Source of the DNA: Candidatus Scalindua japonica
Lineage (GTDB): Bacteria > Planctomycetota > Brocadiia > Brocadiales > Scalinduaceae
Length of the DNA: 64,000 bases
Direction: 5' to 3'
Assembly: GCF_002443295.1 (NCBI RefSeq)
Contig: NZ_BAOS01000013.1
Coordinates: forward strand, 62,001 to 126,000
Below are positions 33,877 through 41,487 of the stretch, one piece after another. Position 1 is the stretch's first letter; each line of letters starts with the position of its first letter. The translations under genes were made by a program, and so were the position numbers. The notes below the pieces were generated by a model. The model ran no database searches. It was not told the origin of the DNA and saw only the letters and a list, made by a program, of their open reading frames with translations.

Positions 33877-35514
33877 CTATTCATATTCATTAAATAATTT
33901 ATTCAGGCAGTATTCCTTATCTGATTGTTGTGATAAAATTTCCCTTATTTTATCTAAGAAAATGTAACTTTCATCGATCTTATCTCTCAGTATCAATTTA
34001 ATGATCAGGATATTCGTCATTTTTTCTATATCTCTATCGGCATGGTGTAAACCGAGCTGTTTGAACATTTTTGAAATCAGAAGTTTCTGATATATTAAGT
34101 CGAGAGATGGAGTTAGAGTTCCAGTGAAATCATCGAATAATACATTATCCTTTTTCAATCCGATATTGCTGGCAGCAGAATCTATTACCGTTACCGTCAT
34201 CGGGGCAGGACCGCACAGATAAAATGTTGTTTTAGGATCGTCGTGTTTTAGATAACTTGTTAACAATGGGCCTATAAAACCAACCTGGCCAAGCCACTTC
34301 TCTCCACTTTTGTCAATCATACCGTGTTTTATGATACTATTTTGGTGTTCTTCTGATATGCCTGAGAAACACTCCTTGTCAATATCATTTAATTCCGCCG
34401 GATTATCTCCCCTGAACGCACCGGACAACACAGGTATGAATTTAAAGTTATGATCTGTTTTATGTCGATGGAGCCACTTCAATATATAACGCATGGGAAT
34501 ATCCTGAAATCTTCTTTCACCCAGGAAGAAGTATACTTTCTCTTTACGCCCTTCTGCGAACCATTGGTCGAGAAGCGCTAATATAGGCGCAAGTCCTGCC
34601 CCTCCTGCCACAAAGACGGCTTTATGTTTCTCTTTTTTCAGGAAGAAATTGCCATAAGGGCCGGTAAACCTGACCTTCTCACCCGCCCATAAGTTCCAGA
34701 TTGATTTCTCCTGGAAGTACTCTTTTACACAGCTTGGTCCCATGCAGGGTACCCCACCATTTTCTATCTGCAAACGTGGATTTATTGGCGCTACTCTTGT
34801 AATCAGCTTTATAATGTCAGACCTTATCGTCGCTATTGAATAAGCGCGATAGAGATCAATTCCGGGGGTAAAGGGCTTATACTCTTTGCCAGTCTCTTTG
34901 CAAAAACAGGCTATCTGCTCACCATACTTTTTGTAATGCTGCTCTACATAATCCTCCGGCAAACAAATTTGTATATACTGCCCTGGCTTAAAATTGAATT
35001 TTCGCAGTGGCCGCAAACTTATTTCACACTTATCGGACGTCAATTCTACTTTCTTGATTACACGGGCTGAATATTTCTTGACCTGTAAGGTAGACTTTGG
35101 CAAAAAAATGTCAATATCTTTGTCTACCCTTACCTGGCATGATAATCTGGTATATCCGTCACCTATTCCTTTCTCAAGAAATTGTCTTGTCTCTTCTCTT
35201 GATTTACGATCAAAAAGAGAGGTTTCTGTTGGTGAATATGTTCCCATATCGGTATATAACTTTATCTTGCATTGCCCGCATGTCGCGTTTCCGCCGCAAC
35301 CTGATGGAATATTGTATCCTTTGTTCTGAAGGGTGTTAAGCAATTTGTCTCCACCCTCAATATTGAGTTTTTTTTCGAAATCGTCATCGCTGTGTATAAC
35401 AAGCTTCCGTTTCTTACCTTTGCCAAAGTACTGGTAAGTAAGTTCGCTGAGCCCTGCCATGGCTAACATAATTATGATGATAATAACGATACTTAGTAAT
35501 ATAGATGTGATCAT
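33877..35514 (-). CDS. nqrF: Na+-translocating NADH:quinone reductase subunit F, with C-terminal extension
   Basis: 545 residues against about 407 for the usual protein. The N-terminal helix (3-22) anchors it. The 2Fe-2S domain has C73, C79, C82 (SGCGGNATCGQC) and C126. The FAD and NADH parts show RAYSIA, VFVAGGAGLAPILALLDQW and YLCGPAPMTV. The usual ending, xxxDDFxG, is at about 464-468 (NVLFDDFTG). About 75 further residues follow, helical and charged, with no recognised motif. There are also inserts in the reductase part. It takes electrons from NADH and starts the sodium-pumping chain. Last gene of the operon. Confidence 0.93.
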   Translation of the reverse strand: MITSILLSIVIIIIIMLAMAGLSELTYQYFGKGKKRKLVIHSDDDFEKKLNIEGGDKLLNTLQNKGYNIPSGCGGNATCGQCKIKLYTDMGTYSPTETSLFDRKSREETRQFLEKGIGDGYTRLSCQVRVDKDIDIFLPKSTLQVKKYSARVIKKVELTSDKCEISLRPLRKFNFKPGQYIQICLPEDYVEQHYKKYGEQIACFCKETGKEYKPFTPGIDLYRAYSIATIRSDIIKLITRVAPINPRLQIENGGVPCMGPSCVKEYFQEKSIWNLWAGEKVRFTGPYGNFFLKKEKHKAVFVAGGAGLAPILALLDQWFAEGRKEKVYFFLGERRFQDIPMRYILKWLHRHKTDHNFKFIPVLSGAFRGDNPAELNDIDKECFSGISEEHQNSIIKHGMIDKSGEKWLGQVGFIGPLLTSYLKHDDPKTTFYLCGPAPMTVTVIDSAASNIGLKKDNVLFDDFTGTLTPSLDLIYQKLLISKMFKQLGLHHADRDIEKMTNILIIKLILRDKIDESYIFLDKIREILSQQSDKEYCLNKLFNEYE

Positions 35515-35598: not shown

Positions 35599-37014
35599 TC
35601 AGAAAATTGCTATTGCACCTATACCGGTAAAGATTGCCGCCATTATCCCGAGAAGCAGTATGGCAACCGAGTCTTCATCCCATGTATTACAGGGCACAAA
35701 AAGTTTGTGACGCCTCAATAAAGCAAGCCATACGCATACCATTAACCAGTGAAGCCCAAAACCAAATGCGGTTACCGTTGTCGCCATAAAAGACAGGCCG
35801 GGAGGTATGGTAAACGTGGAACTGGCAAGAACAATGCAGTTGACGGTAATCAGCTCCAGGAATTGTCCCATTTGCTGGTATGTTTCTATTGCAAAACGCC
35901 TGAGGAGCACTCCCAGGATTTGTACAAATGTTGCAATGGTTACAATAAATACCGTTAGATAAAATATTCTTTCGAGCCGTATGGGGACCGGAGAAATTGA
36001 AGAGAGGTAATTACTGGCCCCTATTAATATTTTATTATAAACTAACCAGTTAAGGCTTGTGGACAGTGTCACTACGATAACTACCGCCAGCCCCATCTTC
36101 CACGCGGAGTCAACCTGCCTGGACTTATTAAGCAACGGACATATTCCCAGGAGCTTGCTGAGGACAATACCGTCAAAGAAAAGAGCACTCAGGAATATCG
36201 GAAGAAGAATTTGAAACTGATTGTTCAGGGAAGTAACCGCTTTTATATTTGTTATAAGGCTTACGATGAGAAGAACACCTAAGACAATGATTATGATGAG
36301 CTTTCCTGACATTTTAAATGCCGGCTTCTTTTCTCTCTCAGTAGTTTCAACCTCTGTTACCTCCTCTTTTTTCTCTAATACATTTTCCTGATATACAACA
36401 CCCGTCTTGACAAACAGTGGCCTCAGCATAAAACGCCACAAAGCAAGGGCAAAGAAACCGCCTACCGGTGTTATCATTAATACTACAACGGGAAAACTTT
36501 CCGGGAGTATCCGGAAATTCAATAACGTTCCAAACCCGAGAGGCTCTCTCATCAGTGCGAGGAAAATGAGTGCTATAGAGTAGCCGAGACATGCCTTCAA
36601 TATCTTCTTCTGCGCATCCCAGAATCCAAATGTCAATCCTTCGGCGATCACGGCAAGGACAATACAGTTTGTTGTAATTAGATCTATATATGCTTTTATG
36701 TTGAAGGCAATTCTGGGAATCGTTGCCTGGACGATCAGGTTAAATATTGTTACGAAAACAGATATAATGATCATCAAAAGGGTAATTTTATGATGAGTGC
36801 CGGTTGTGATAATGAGTTTCTTAAAAGGGTATACAAGGCAGAAGCTGAGACAGGTTACAAAAACTACACCAACTCCCATTGTGAGAGAGTTTTCCATTTT
36901 GTTTGTGACTGCCAGGGCAGAGCAGAAACCAAGACCTGCGGCTGCTGATATTATATAGTTATCTCGTAAAAAGAACTTAGATATTAACCTGATATATCTT
37001 GGCAGCATATTCAT
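35599..37014 (-). CDS. nqrDE: Fused NqrD-NqrE membrane subunit
   Basis: 471 residues with two homologous six-helix halves joined by a charged linker (about 205-235). The first half follows NqrD (GFCSALAVTNKMENSLTMGV, then ITTNCIVL). The second follows NqrE (LLGICPLL, MGLAVVIVVTLSTSLNWLVY, ITVNCIVL). All four cysteines that hold the intramembrane iron centre are kept: C31, C117, C292 and C393. In most bacteria these are two genes. One chain would fix the 1:1 ratio and the antiparallel arrangement. It overlaps nqrC by 4 bp. Confidence 0.9.
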   Translation of the reverse strand: MNMLPRYIRLISKFFLRDNYIISAAAGLGFCSALAVTNKMENSLTMGVGVVFVTCLSFCLVYPFKKLIITTGTHHKITLLMIIISVFVTIFNLIVQATIPRIAFNIKAYIDLITTNCIVLAVIAEGLTFGFWDAQKKILKACLGYSIALIFLALMREPLGFGTLLNFRILPESFPVVVLMITPVGGFFALALWRFMLRPLFVKTGVVYQENVLEKKEEVTEVETTEREKKPAFKMSGKLIIIIVLGVLLIVSLITNIKAVTSLNNQFQILLPIFLSALFFDGIVLSKLLGICPLLNKSRQVDSAWKMGLAVVIVVTLSTSLNWLVYNKILIGASNYLSSISPVPIRLERIFYLTVFIVTIATFVQILGVLLRRFAIETYQQMGQFLELITVNCIVLASSTFTIPPGLSFMATTVTAFGFGLHWLMVCVWLALLRRHKLFVPCNTWDEDSVAILLLGIMAAIFTGIGAIAIF

Positions 37015-37721
37015 AAGCTTTTTGCCTCCATTTCCTGCCAGAAGGTTTTCATCGCTTCGTTAATGATTTTTTCCATCCCTTTGCTTGTATACGAAGCTCC
37101 CGTAATTGCATGTACCTCATTTGGGCCTACTGTTTTTCTTCCCCTGACCAGCAACAATCTGGGTCTCAGTTTTTTTCCGACAAATTGCTTTTTAAATTTG
37201 TTTTCCGTCATTCTTCCACCAAGGCCGGGTGTTTCCGTATGGTCTAAAACCTCTATTCCTTTAATAGTTTCCAAATCAGGTCCGACACAGATAAAAAGAG
37301 AAATATCTGCAGCTTTGTTGAAACCATAACCAAGTTTTGTAGTAATAAATCCTACACCCTCCAGACTTCCTTCCTTGTAATAGAGGAACAATTCTTTTCC
37401 TTTTTTATACATTTTCAGCGGATCAGCTGATTGTTTCGGAGAATGAATATCTGATGTGTTTTTTCTGCTAATATTCTCACTGAAAACCTTTCGTACATCC
37501 TCTTTATCAATCTTCATCTGTTTAATACCAAAAAATTGCTTCTCTTTTGAATGATAGGGAATAGCAAAAATGTCAAGGACTGATCTTTTAAGTTTAATTT
37601 CATGGTATTCGGCTATCTTTTCTGATGTTACGAAATACAGTGACAACAAAATGGCACAAGGTATAGCGGTAATAAGAGTAATAGAAAAAACTCTGATTAA
37701 TATTATTTTAAACTCATTCAT
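37011..37721 (-). CDS. nqrC: Na+-translocating NADH:quinone reductase subunit C
   Basis: 236 residues with one N-terminal membrane helix (about 8-30) and a periplasmic FMN-binding domain. The flavinylation motif is HAITGASYTS (204-213), with Ser210 where the FMN-bearing Thr usually sits. Ser is tolerated in some ApbE targets. HTETPGLGGRMT is the second conserved block. It passes electrons from NqrB or the iron centre onward. No apbE gene is in the window. Confidence 0.93.
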   Translation of the reverse strand: MNEFKIILIRVFSITLITAIPCAILLSLYFVTSEKIAEYHEIKLKRSVLDIFAIPYHSKEKQFFGIKQMKIDKEDVRKVFSENISRKNTSDIHSPKQSADPLKMYKKGKELFLYYKEGSLEGVGFITTKLGYGFNKAADISLFICVGPDLETIKGIEVLDHTETPGLGGRMTENKFKKQFVGKKLRPRLLLVRGRKTVGPNEVHAITGASYTSKGMEKIINEAMKTFWQEMEAKSL

Positions 37722-37756: not shown

Positions 37757-38854
37757 TTATCTGTATTTTATCTTCAGTATCAGGGATTGAATTGGAATTC
37801 CTATGAGATTCATAAGTAGTATTGCATACATTATACCTTCCGGTATTGGTGTAAAACTCCTGATTACAACCGTAACAATACCGCAACCTATACCGAAAAT
37901 CCATTTACCGACCTGACTGTATGTAGTTGTAATCGGGTCTGTTGCCATAAAGAAAGCAGCGAATATAAGACCTCCGCTCAGTAGCTGAAAAATGGGAGGA
38001 GCTACGGTTTTTCCGACAACAAGAGATAAAACCGCAGAAAAGATAAATACGCTTCCTAAATACGCAACAGGAATTCTCCAGTTTGCAATCCTTTTAAAAC
38101 ATAACCATACTCCCATTATAATTATGGATATCCTGCATGTTTCTCCAAGGGAGCCGGTATTTGAACCAAACATAAAAGAAAAGTATGATGCGGTTTCACC
38201 TGTCTCTTTATAAGCCATCAAGGGCGTTGCATGTGTTACCGCGTCAACTCCGTGAATTAAAGAATGCAAAGCATGCGTCCCTGTAAATGGTTCCTGCCAT
38301 CCAATAACTACTAATGATGGAAAGCATATTGTTAACAACAGGCGACCTAGCAGTGCAGGGTTGACAAGATTATGACCAACCCCACCAAGTATATTCCTGA
38401 ACAGTATGCTTAACGCCGCCCCTACTCCGATCAGCCAGAGAGGCGCCTGTGGCGGTAATAAAGCGGGGATAAAGAAGCAGGTTACAAACCCACCTTCACT
38501 GATTCTCTCTTCTCTGGCCAGAATTACCCATACCACGTCTACTACAAACACCCCAATCACTATCGATACAATGAGCTTTGGAACAACACATAAAAATCCA
38601 TAAAAGTATATTGCAGGCACAATCCATCCAAAAAAAAGTGCTACAAGAACACCGCCCATGTACTGTTTGGCATCCAAACTACTCCGAATGAACGGAGGAG
38701 CCTTGGCTGTGTCTTTTGTGCTTCTGATTAAACCATCACACGCCTCAAAAAGTGCACCGAACAGGAAATTGACCTTCGGGCTTGATTGGACAAAATTTTC
38801 TGTGTTGTTTAACTTTTTATTTAATAATGTTTCAATACTCTTAATAATTTTCAT
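37757..38854 (-). CDS. nqrB: Na+-translocating NADH:quinone reductase subunit B
   Basis: 365 residues, mainly membrane helices. The covalent FMN motif D-x2-T-x-A-T is DAVTHAT, ending at Thr210. It has NPALLGRLLL and FFMATDPITTTYSQVGKWIF, which are typical of NqrB/RnfD. It is a core part of the sodium channel and the quinone-reduction route. It lies between nqrA and nqrC. Confidence 0.95.
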   Translation of the reverse strand: MKIIKSIETLLNKKLNNTENFVQSSPKVNFLFGALFEACDGLIRSTKDTAKAPPFIRSSLDAKQYMGGVLVALFFGWIVPAIYFYGFLCVVPKLIVSIVIGVFVVDVVWVILAREERISEGGFVTCFFIPALLPPQAPLWLIGVGAALSILFRNILGGVGHNLVNPALLGRLLLTICFPSLVVIGWQEPFTGTHALHSLIHGVDAVTHATPLMAYKETGETASYFSFMFGSNTGSLGETCRISIIIMGVWLCFKRIANWRIPVAYLGSVFIFSAVLSLVVGKTVAPPIFQLLSGGLIFAAFFMATDPITTTYSQVGKWIFGIGCGIVTVVIRSFTPIPEGIMYAILLMNLIGIPIQSLILKIKYR

Positions 38855-38997: not shown

Positions 38998-40008
38998 CTA
39001 GCATGCAGACTTACATTCCTTAATAATATGGAGCAGTTCCAATTTTGAAGGACATATAAAACTACATAGCCCGCATTCTATACATTTCTCCAATGCATAA
39101 TTACGTGCCTTATGTTTTTCACCTCGTGAATAACTGTGCCAGTAGAGAGCTGGCTCAAGATCAACGGGACAAATATTATCACAAAAATTACAGTATACAC
39201 AGCGTCTCAACTCTCCCATCAGGCTTGTCGTAAAGTGCAGTTCTTTGCTCTTCATGAAATGTAATGGTGTTTTATAGTCTCTCTCCTCCATTACTACAAT
39301 ACTCTTTACGAACCAGTCAATCGATTGAGTCAGGTCCTCGACCTCAATTCCGTTCAGTGGTCCATCAAAAAAGACGCGATATTTGATATCGGTCCTGATA
39401 TATTTTTTTAAAACAGTTTCAACTGGAGTACCTGTTTTTACCTTGAGTATCCTGTTTTCAATTAAACCGGTTCCTGAGACAGGTATAAGACGTACGGTAT
39501 TATCTTTTTTCAGTATATAGTGTTCATAAATACCAATAAGTGATTGTGGTTCTAATAAAAGGACTCCATGTTCAATGGTATTCTCGCCAAAAGAGGTCTT
39601 CAATCCAAGTACATTCTTTATCATCAGCACAGGTGCATCATAAGGATATATGGGTTTCATGCTATATGTATGCAGCCACTCTCTCTTTTTTCCGTACCGT
39701 ATCAAATCATTAATAAGATCATCTTCACCACGGTCAACGACTATACGGCACTCTGAATCAGGAAAGTATACTGATCTTACTTTCTCCAGTTTTTGTAAAA
39801 AATTTGTCGTATTGCCTTTAATGACAGTCCAATGAGGAAGTGCCCATGGTTCAGAGGGACATAAATTTATTATAATGTGTTCAACTTTTTTCTCTGGGAA
39901 GGTGAAGCGGAATTCTTCTGTCTGCCCGCTATATCTTACCGATACAATGTCTTCTGAAAATTCAGTTGGATATGCCTTTATCAGATCAAAACCTTTTTTG
40001 TATAGCAT
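38998..40008 (-). CDS. nqrA: NqrA-like subunit with two RnfC-type 4Fe-4S motifs
   Basis: 336 residues, shorter than the usual ~447. The middle has the SLBB-like segment RILKVKTGTPVETVLKKY and the NqrA/RnfC-type FFDGPLNGIEVEDLTQSIDW. The end carries eight cysteines in two complete ferredoxin motifs (270, 273, 276, 280 and 309, 312, 315, 319; CVYCNFCDNICP and CIECGLCSFICP). Classical NqrA keeps only a vestige (CTFVCPGK) and has no such clusters, while RnfC does. The subunit thus looks like a form between Nqr and Rnf, and may bind quinone and extra iron-sulfur centres. First nqr gene after sthA. Confidence 0.85.
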   Translation of the reverse strand: MLYKKGFDLIKAYPTEFSEDIVSVRYSGQTEEFRFTFPEKKVEHIIINLCPSEPWALPHWTVIKGNTTNFLQKLEKVRSVYFPDSECRIVVDRGEDDLINDLIRYGKKREWLHTYSMKPIYPYDAPVLMIKNVLGLKTSFGENTIEHGVLLLEPQSLIGIYEHYILKKDNTVRLIPVSGTGLIENRILKVKTGTPVETVLKKYIRTDIKYRVFFDGPLNGIEVEDLTQSIDWFVKSIVVMEERDYKTPLHFMKSKELHFTTSLMGELRRCVYCNFCDNICPVDLEPALYWHSYSRGEKHKARNYALEKCIECGLCSFICPSKLELLHIIKECKSAC

Positions 40009-40092: not shown

Positions 40093-41487
40093 TTACACGT
40101 CGTTCATTCGGTTCAGACCGGAAAGAGCGGCATACTTGTAGGTTTCCGCGAGAGTTGGATGGTTAAAGACGTTATCAATGAAATAATCAATTGTTCCACC
40201 AAACTCGATTACGGCCTGTCCAAGATGCACCAATTCAGTCGCGTTTTCTCCAATTACGTGTACCGCCAATAGTTTCTTGCTTTCCTGATGGAAGATAAGT
40301 TTCAACATACCGTCTAATGCCCCCATAATTACACCTCTGGAGGATTCTTTGAAAAACGATTTGCCTATGCTGTATGGTATGTGTTCAGCAGACAATTGCT
40401 CTTCTGTTGGGCCAACAAATGAAATTTCCGGAATGGTATATATACCTACCGGAAAGTGTGCCGACATTGGAGGCACTTTTTTCCGGAACGCATGAGTCCC
40501 GGCAATACGTCCCTGTTCAAAGGAAGTTGAGGCGAGTTGTGGGTGTCCTACCACGTCTCCCGCGGCATAAATGCGTTTATTAGAGGTTTGATAAAAATCA
40601 TTCACCACTATCATGCCTCTTTCATCTACATCGACCTTCACCTTGTTTAACCCTAAATCACCAGTGGCAACAACTCTATGGGTGCAAAACAGAGCCATCT
40701 GACTTAGTATAGACTTGCCGGAGTCTAATCTAATCTCGACATGATCATCTTTGGTTTTCCTGATGGAAGCGACAGAGTCATTTAAGAAAAACTGAGTATT
40801 GCGGACATCCAGTTGGGATATCAGATTAGTGCGTATATCTCTATCCACAAAAGCAAGAATCTCTGGTCGTTTTTCCACTACATTGATTCTTATTCCCAGG
40901 ATAGAAAATATACTGCAGAATTCCATCCCGATAATGCCGCCCCCGACAATGGTGATAGATGCAGGCAATTCCTTTATGCTCAGAACATTGTCAGTATAAA
41001 AGATACTCCTTCCGTCAAAGGGAACATTCTCAGGGAGAAATGGTGCTGTGCCTGAACAGATAACGGAAAACTTTGTTCTTACTTCCCGAAGTAACTTTCC
41101 AGAATTATCAAATATATTGATGGTGTTTCCATTCTTAAATTTTCCGTATCCCGGTAATATTTCTATACCGTTTCTTCTGAGCTGCTCTTCTATAACTTCC
41201 GTTTCGTGCCTGATCACCCAATTTACACGTTTTACCAGGTCAGCCATCTTTAGACAGTCTTTAAAGGCAGTACCGACAAAACGCAGACGATAATTTGTGA
41301 GTTGAATGGCCGCTTCTCTGAGGGTTTTTGAAGGCATCGTTCCTGTATTGGTACAAACGCCTCCCAGAAAGCGCGGTTCAATAATCGCTACTTTCTTCTT
41401 TAACTTAGCGACCGCAAGCGCCGCCTTCTGGCCGGCAGGTCCACACCCAAGTACCAGAAGATCATACTCGTAATCAGATTCAGGCAT
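40093..41487 (-). CDS. sthA: Soluble pyridine nucleotide transhydrogenase (SthA-like)
   Basis: 464 residues of the flavin disulfide-reductase family. The FAD site is LVLGCGPAGQKAALAVAKL. The redox-active pair of the family is reduced to one cysteine (LGGVCTNTGTMPSK, C45 with T50 in the second place), as in SthA, so it cannot act as a dithiol reductase. The NAD site is ITIVGGGIIGMEF, and the C-terminal dimer domain has HPTLAETYKYAAL. It balances NADH and NADPH. It is 84 bp upstream of nqrA on the same strand, suggesting joint control. Confidence 0.9.
   Translation of the reverse strand: MPESDYEYDLLVLGCGPAGQKAALAVAKLKKKVAIIEPRFLGGVCTNTGTMPSKTLREAAIQLTNYRLRFVGTAFKDCLKMADLVKRVNWVIRHETEVIEEQLRRNGIEILPGYGKFKNGNTINIFDNSGKLLREVRTKFSVICSGTAPFLPENVPFDGRSIFYTDNVLSIKELPASITIVGGGIIGMEFCSIFSILGIRINVVEKRPEILAFVDRDIRTNLISQLDVRNTQFFLNDSVASIRKTKDDHVEIRLDSGKSILSQMALFCTHRVVATGDLGLNKVKVDVDERGMIVVNDFYQTSNKRIYAAGDVVGHPQLASTSFEQGRIAGTHAFRKKVPPMSAHFPVGIYTIPEISFVGPTEEQLSAEHIPYSIGKSFFKESSRGVIMGALDGMLKLIFHQESKKLLAVHVIGENATELVHLGQAVIEFGGTIDYFIDNVFNHPTLAETYKYAALSGLNRMNDV

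Follow-up and report, generated by a model that had tools for sequence, protein, structure and literature searches.

The RNF complex carries electrons from ferredoxin to NAD+ and the Na+-NQR complex from NADH to quinone; so far, the change from the former to the latter has been argued from these two end points. As summarized in the available part of a 2025 review, the two iron–sulfur clusters of RnfC link the riboflavin of RnfD to the NAD+-reducing FMN of RNF, and in NQR the riboflavin passes electrons to quinone at NqrB, in a pocket that uses N-terminal helices absent from RnfD (PMC12174285). NqrA is described there as free of redox cofactors. The accessible portion of a 2025 Rnf structure paper states that NqrA has lost them (PMC11889175), and a 2023 NQR structure paper gives it no cluster in the text at hand (PMC10643135). 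In the available part of their work, Reyes-Prieto et al. (2014) suggested an order of events in which RnfB was lost first, RnfC then decayed at its FMN, NAD and cluster sites, and NqrF arrived afterwards (PMC4014512). The literature searched, which contains few subscription papers, yielded no mention of such clusters in an NqrF-type complex.

The locus described here lies in a 64,000-nucleotide stretch of DNA, analyzed as a whole and referred to below as the window, from Candidatus Scalindua japonica (contig NZ_BAOS01000013.1, positions 62,001–126,000). Hydrazine synthase alpha is encoded in this genome and in 40 of the 62 genomes over which the distribution in its order was counted; hence, the host is an anammox planctomycete. 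With the canonical Na+-NQR (Vibrio cholerae NqrA–F, PDB 7xk3 and 8a1u), the locus shares the NqrF input, the N-terminal quinone-site stretch of NqrB, NqrC, the NqrD/NqrE core, the gene order A-B-C-D-E-F and the NqrA fold (Z 23.7). It differs in the eight cluster cysteines of NqrA, the lack of a barrel domain, a shortened membrane loop, the fusion of D and E, a longer NqrF, the replacement of NqrB Gly141 and subunits scoring under the NCBIfam nqr cut-offs. With RnfC (Acetobacterium woodii 9eri_C, Clostridium tetanomorphum 7zc6_C, Azotobacter vinelandii 8ahx_C), its best structural match, it shares the C-terminal dicluster 4Fe-4S domain, but it has no GGxxFP loop and no N-terminal barrel, is fed by NqrF instead of RnfB, and bears quinone-site marks in NqrB.

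Complexes that combine RnfC-type cluster cysteines, the flavin loop being gone, with an NQR-type N-terminal stretch of NqrB are treated here as a class of their own, defined in this analysis as the stem-grade Fe-S NQR. The window shows an NqrF-type operon, eight NqrA cysteines, no GGxxFP and NqrB Glu157, and its subunit is probably the Fe-S NqrA of a stem-grade Na+-NQR complex, i.e., of the anammox branch of an overlooked Fe-S NQR grade between RNF and canonical NQR. As far as sequence and trees can tell, it is nearly certain that the complex joins an NQR-type membrane core and NqrF to an NqrA possessing the RnfC dicluster domain without the RnfC FMN/NAD site.

The Putative Iron–Sulfur NqrA and Its Operon

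The subunit is encoded on the minus strand at 38998–40008 (336 aa, ATG start) by the first gene of a leftward operon of five genes: the NqrA/RnfC-like gene, NqrB, NqrC, an NqrD–NqrE fusion and NqrF. Two 4Fe-4S motifs are situated at its C-terminus, also on the minus strand: C270-x2-C273-x2-C276-x3-C280, followed by P (39169–39201), and C309-x2-C312-x2-C315-x3-C319, again followed by P (39052–39084). The former corresponds to CVYCNFCDNICP (residues 270–281 of the 336-aa protein) and the latter to CIECGLCSFICP (residues 309–320), the window coordinates spanning the first 11 residues in each case. Both follow the CxxCxxCxxxCP pattern; the reading frame and the eight C-terminal cysteines, pointed out earlier in a sequence-only reading of this DNA, were confirmed. 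A chance origin was rejected, as two such motifs appeared in none of 100,000 shuffles of the protein. Pfam recognizes 4Fe-4S dicluster domains only; the best NCBIfam match is rnfC TIGR01945 (104.7 bits against a cut-off of 246, from model position 151), and nqrA TIGR01936 scores 45 bits (cut-off 321). Judging from the motifs, NqrA very likely binds the clusters.

The protein is shorter than RnfC by about 100 N-terminal residues, both the barrel and the FMN/NAD loop being gone: 43–71 residues precede the column of window residue 44 in the anammox copies vs. 137–178 in RnfC. A missed upstream start codon was considered and rejected: the ATG is separated from the stop codon of the preceding gene by only 84 bases, so no alternative start could supply the lost N-terminus. 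The NqrA membrane-loop insert is also incomplete, and the residues ahead of the first cysteine are NqrA-like in part. These truncations and the D–E fusion were absent from the sequence-only reading. The upstream gene itself (40093–41487, same strand) encodes a probable Si-specific NAD(P)+ transhydrogenase (Sth-like; NCBIfam 531.7 vs. a cut-off of 465 bits) and is not conserved next to the operon in other anammox genomes (27 loci).

The structure of the subunit, modeled from an alignment of 49 sequences (mean pLDDT 89.8, pTM 0.88), found its best matches among solved structures in RnfC chains (Z 28.6–29.4, rmsd 2.8–3.4 Å over 314–316 residues). V. cholerae NqrA came second (Z 20.4–23.7, rmsd 3.9–4.1 Å), and the next family reached Z 16.1.

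The other four genes also reside on the minus strand. NqrB/RnfD (37757–38854, 365 aa) possesses the NQR-type N-terminal stretch, the equivalents of Glu157 and Gly140, and the FMN threonine in DAVTHATPL. NqrC/RnfG (37011–37721, 236 aa) has an FMN-binding domain and one N-terminal hydrophobic helix; its flavin-attachment site reads TGAS in place of a site with the Thr acceptor of canonical NqrC (SGAT, as in the ordinary operon of the same genome, L014), so FMN might be attached to serine. The NqrD–NqrE fusion (35599–37014, 471 aa) retains the intramembrane 2Fe-2S cysteines 31, 117, 292 and 393. By hydropathy alone, its linker (residues 205–262) features an extra hydrophobic helix at 239–257 (pLDDT 36 in an AlphaFold model from 3 sequences), which would let D and E halves of opposite orientation join. 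NqrF (33877–35514, 545 aa) comprises an N-terminal helix, Fer2 and NAD domains with the RAYS and GGAG motifs of FAD/NADH binding, and the 2Fe-2S cysteines Cys73, 79, 82 and 126. A C-terminal extension of about 80 residues is typical of NqrF in anammox bacteria (542–563 aa in 17 anammox loci vs. 403–414 aa in 12 canonical ones).

All the subunits fall under the NCBIfam nqrA–nqrF cut-offs: besides NqrA, this applies to nqrB (182 of 350 bits), nqrC (61 of 144), nqrD (104 of 245), nqrE (127 of 248) and nqrF (186 of 295). No RnfB polyferredoxin is present in the window operon, and the profile search of the whole window genome returned no RnfC above the family cut-off. The earlier claim that the neighbors are true nqr genes was confirmed, NqrF showing the domains, motifs and cysteines listed above, and that of an NQR complex with an RnfC-like subunit agrees with NqrF, the NqrB N-terminal stretch and the trees (see below), all of NQR type, together with the preserved eight cysteines of RnfC.

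Relatives between RNF and Canonical NQR

Relatives were collected by a protein search of the phylum plus a named scan (at least 80 loci) whose pattern consisted of the cysteines of the second motif and which supplied most of the Fe-S loci; since the pattern needs these cysteines, Cys-less members of the Fe-S grade would be missed. Both approaches together revealed full-length relatives with the same eight cysteines. An eight-Cys NqrA occurs in an operon with an NqrF-type protein longer than 300 aa at no fewer than 21 loci, a count that, like all the counts outside the window's order, is not a frequency. These loci belong to Omnitrophota, Phycisphaerae, other planctomycetes, Lentisphaerae, Eisenbacteria, Bipolaricaulota, Anammoxibacter, a Brocadiia MAG and loosely labeled MAGs.

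The canonical NqrA, on the contrary, display the cluster motifs in none of 14 cases: 11 from the planctomycete phylum (drawn from 37 genomes above the nqrA cut-off and including the window genome's own), as well as Ruegeria, Parabacteroides and Prevotella. Additional matches in G067, G045, G042 and others, considered as canonical NqrA, were rejected as true RnfC in RNF operons. In line with the earlier remark on a "vestige of one" motif, classical NqrA has no cysteine of the first motif and at most three of the second. The sequence-only reading had named as its refutation the occurrence of the same eight cysteines in many well-studied Nqr complexes; such cysteines did prove common, but in uncultured lineages and not in the 14 canonical NqrA sequences compared.

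That canonical NqrA manages without clusters lends some weight to the idea that, in the window protein, bound clusters serve solely to maintain the C-terminal fold, the complex being an ordinary NADH:quinone pump with a structural NqrA, as proposed for V. cholerae. The review cited above likewise assigns no direct function to NqrA in its available part (PMC12174285). At the same time, all eight cysteines persist in 19 of the 20 anammox copies aligned, as do both motifs in all six non-anammox planctomycete forms found without the Cys pattern (G067, G045, G042, G047, G130, G251), though the canonical fold does without them; a purely fold-holding role thus appears possible but unlikely.

Further characters grade from RNF to NQR. 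The GGxxFP FMN/NAD loop of RnfC is present in 22/22 RNF sequences and in none of 36 Fe-S, 17 anammox and 14 canonical NqrA. The region of the loop is worn in the basal Fe-S forms (e.g., LGTSGIPT) and reads GAWQFFYDA in Phycisphaerae and GLWTSLRTRP in canonical NqrA. The distance from the SLBB glycine to the first cysteine amounts to 31–33 residues in RNF, 49 in anammox bacteria, 63–68 in Fe-S NqrA and 66–73 in the canonical subunit; according to the accessible text of one source, a loop of V. cholerae NqrA in this region serves as its membrane anchor and is in contact with the inhibitor site (PMC9325719). The NCBIfam rnfC/nqrA scores change from 313/71 bits (L145) through 258/128 (L129) and 117/132 (L197) to 49/597 in canonical L260. 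As some Fe-S forms exceed the rnfC cut-off, copies linked to NqrF may be listed as rnfC in databases.

Several loci of Acetothermia/Fraserbacteria (L141, 7204–12418; L142, 4164–10015; L143; L145, 7971–14731) harbor an Fe-S NqrA and NqrB without NqrF; instead, they encode proteins with Fer2 plus an RnfB-type PF04060 domain, and cytochrome b or Rieske genes are found near L141 and L142. These four loci form the earliest branches of the NQR side and may represent a still earlier, different complex. The cultured fusobacterium Ilyobacter polytropus (pILYOP01; L278, 5956–9811) carries nqrB-C-D-E-F-like genes without nqrA immediately next to an apparent 16S rRNA gene, which suggests either an NqrA-less complex or an assembly join.

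Phylogeny of the Complex

Trees were constructed for NqrB/RnfD (82, 65 and 70 rows), NqrD+E/RnfE+A (61 and 54 rows) and NqrA/RnfC (83 rows, with the Cys and loop columns blanked) and rooted on RNF, the position of the root being assumed. The careful NqrB trees exclude 21 named loci (near-copies, long or frame-joined rows) and the quick one four; 7 (quick) and 18 (careful) rows were left out of the D+E trees, along with loci without D or E, and L148, L165 and L271 out of the NqrA tree.

In all three data sets, RNF forms one clade and everything else another, the RNF clade being supported at 100/100 in the careful NqrB trees and at 100/99 in the careful D+E tree. Canonical NQR is likewise a single clade (100/100), nested in each data set among the Fe-S forms, with the Phycisphaerae-type Fe-S NQR as its sister (99/97 and 98/88 for NqrB, 99/94 for D+E). 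A topology setting all the Cys-bearing rows of the NQR side apart from both canonical NQR and RNF was rejected by the AU test (p 0.0118, 0.0074 and 8.7e-5). Since the RNF-rooted trees nest the cluster-free NQR within the Fe-S forms and the AU test rejects their separation, the clusters are most simply seen as ancestral and lost once in classical NQR, a scenario that we regard as likely.

The phylogeny including the anammox homologues, which the earlier reading had recommended as a check, placed the window NqrA on the NQR side, outside the canonical clade. The anammox forms group together as a single clade (100/100) with a tentative place among the early Fe-S branches; its stem is long, with 1.2–3.3 changes per column, and the D+E placement (stem 2.5–3.3) is not trusted. 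Joining the anammox clade with canonical NQR was rejected (p 0.020). Its placement at the base of the NQR side, next to RNF, was not rejected for NqrB (p 0.205), and the window NqrB scores barely above the rnfD cut-off (208 vs. 207.05) and under that of nqrB (182 vs. 350). Both observations would fit a late chimera, in which an RNF of the anammox ancestor exchanged its RnfB for NqrF independently of the origin of NQR. Such a history seems very improbable in view of the strongly supported RNF clade, which excludes the anammox complex, the RNF core subunits of anammox bacteria, which branch far off within RNF, the NQR-only features of NqrB and the partly NqrA-like stretch before the first cysteine.

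Returning to the Fe-S NQR grade, its evolution may be envisaged as follows. In an RNF-like ancestor, the input module would have been swapped to NqrF, and the output subunit would have lost its flavin site with the clusters kept; canonical NQR would have experienced a later single loss of the clusters. In the anammox line, the N-terminal barrel and roughly half of the membrane-loop insert would also have disappeared, and D would have fused with E. The suggestion that the window gene is an intermediate between RNF and Nqr hence stands in part: the trees make the Fe-S family the best candidate, whereas the anammox copy is a shortened, fast-evolved offshoot and not itself the link. Fuller intermediates are present in Omnitrophota, Phycisphaerae, Anammoxibacter and the Brocadiia MAG.

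Occurrence in Anammox Bacteria

Within the order of the window genome, the short form of the subunit was detected in 16 of 17 genomes of its own family and in 29 of 33 of a second anammox family, including Candidatus Brocadia sapporoensis (L205), some partial or contig-split copies (G016, G283, G330) being counted. A long form occurs in 2/2 genomes of the third family, where the G310 protein is the same as that of Candidatus Anammoxibacter OFTM134; the Fe-S NqrA is missing from all nine genomes of the fourth family and the single one of the fifth. RnfC above the cut-off was found in 9/9 searched genomes of the second family, in 2/2 of the fourth and in 0/5 of the window's family.

Aligned short copies are 45–81% identical to the window protein. 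The cysteines of the first motif are present in 20/20 of them and those of the second in 19/20, the exception, L073 (G016), being frameshifted ahead of the second motif. The five genes of the operon stay together in 26–27 of 27 anammox loci. The window genome is in 47 contigs and a few relatives, such as L073, are frameshifted, which could point to gene decay or to an artefact of assembly or binning; this explanation was refuted by the conservation of an intact operon in many genomes, some of them single-contig, and has a negligible probability.

The window genome also possesses an ordinary nqrABCDEF-nqrM-apbE operon, located on the same contig at a distance of about 100 kb. Its nqrA (7615–8963 of L014, G000:C13:203000-216000) is broken into two frames (122 and 331 aa), probably owing to a frameshift that is either genuine or introduced by the assembly. 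About 16 kb from it lies another, truncated copy of the ordinary nqrA (3099–4085 of L015, G000:C13:224000-231000), antisense within an ORF that starts like another gene, which may reflect a recent partial duplication or misassembly.

Quinone Site and Possible Electron Partners

The N-terminal stretch of NqrB, which builds the quinone site according to the available parts of two sources (PMC12174285, PMC9325719), is characteristic of the canonical, Fe-S and anammox groups and does not occur in RNF. Glu157 was recorded in 12/12 canonical NQR, 32/34 Fe-S and 17/17 anammox sequences, and Gly140 in 12/12, 33/34 and 17/17, respectively, the window included; both are absent from all 21 RNF sequences. 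Gly141, the second glycine treated in the accessible text of Reyes-Prieto et al. (PMC4014512), is conserved in 23/34 Fe-S forms and in 0/17 anammox sequences, all of which carry Val or Ile. Given the change of Gly141 and the shortened membrane loop, quinone chemistry may differ in anammox bacteria.

A polyprenyl synthetase gene, plausibly serving the synthesis of quinone tails and thus a hint of quinone use, lies beside 10 of 38 Fe-S loci from several phyla (L131, L134, L136, L137, L151, L167, L182, L196, L199, L270) vs. none of 30 canonical or RNF loci, the locus lengths being comparable, not equal. Because of the retained quinone-site marks of NqrB and these neighbors, we judge quinone somewhat the likelier main partner, the NqrA clusters forming a side branch.

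Alternatively, the clusters may constitute a working exit or entry between the NqrB riboflavin and a soluble carrier (ferredoxin, flavodoxin or another protein), with quinone no partner in anammox bacteria. The altered Gly141 and the shortened membrane loop are compatible with this, as is the bridging of the RnfD riboflavin to the FMN of RnfC by the RnfC clusters, reported in the available part of the review (PMC12174285); once the barrel and the flavin loop were gone, a partner could gain access to the outer cluster. Nevertheless, no soluble partner gene is constant beside the operon in the 27 anammox loci, where the next gene clusters recur in at most nine, and NqrB retains Glu157, Gly140 and the N-terminal stretch. 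An acceptor below NADH presumably could not drive Na+ export under the RNF/NQR coupling direction either. We therefore hold the soluble-carrier reading to be doubtful, and the exchange of electrons with ferredoxin, raised by the sequence-only reading, has found no support so far.

Proposed Function and Significance

The complex is proposed to operate as a NADH:quinone oxidoreductase that is coupled to Na+ and has a side branch of Fe-S clusters. Electrons from NADH would pass through FAD and the 2Fe-2S center of NqrF, the 2Fe-2S center of the D–E fusion and the FMN of NqrC to the FMN and riboflavin of NqrB; electron transfer would be coupled to that of Na+, and riboflavin would reduce menaquinone at NqrB. 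The two NqrA clusters would be located next to the NqrB riboflavin, as in RnfC, and might function as a one-electron side branch, buffering electrons or handing them to a soluble partner. According to the accessible text of one source, the potential of menaquinone-7 is about −70 mV and that of NAD −320 mV (PMC12954380), so NADH oxidation can pump Na+, or an ion gradient can drive NADH formation. The anammox complex may also run in reverse, forming NADH from quinol at the expense of the ion gradient.

A more far-reaching and quite improbable version regards Fe-S NQR as a third functional class of the RNF/NQR family, with the NqrB riboflavin as a branch point from which one electron would be exchanged with menaquinone and the other, via the NqrA clusters, with a soluble low-potential carrier. 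If this were true, the ion pump would also carry out quinone-linked bifurcation or confurcation, anammox bacteria would run it backwards to supply CO2 fixation with NADH or a reduced carrier, and the classical NQR would represent a simplified descendant deprived of the second branch.

Living NqrF complexes lacking the flavin site and bearing cluster motifs put the losses on the way from RNF to NQR in order and make this step testable in protein. The Fe-S forms also provide NqrA, which has no assigned function, with a history in redox chemistry and, perhaps, a redox role today. They are relevant as well to the connection between quinone and NADH in anammox bacteria, a subject of the available part of PMC12954380.
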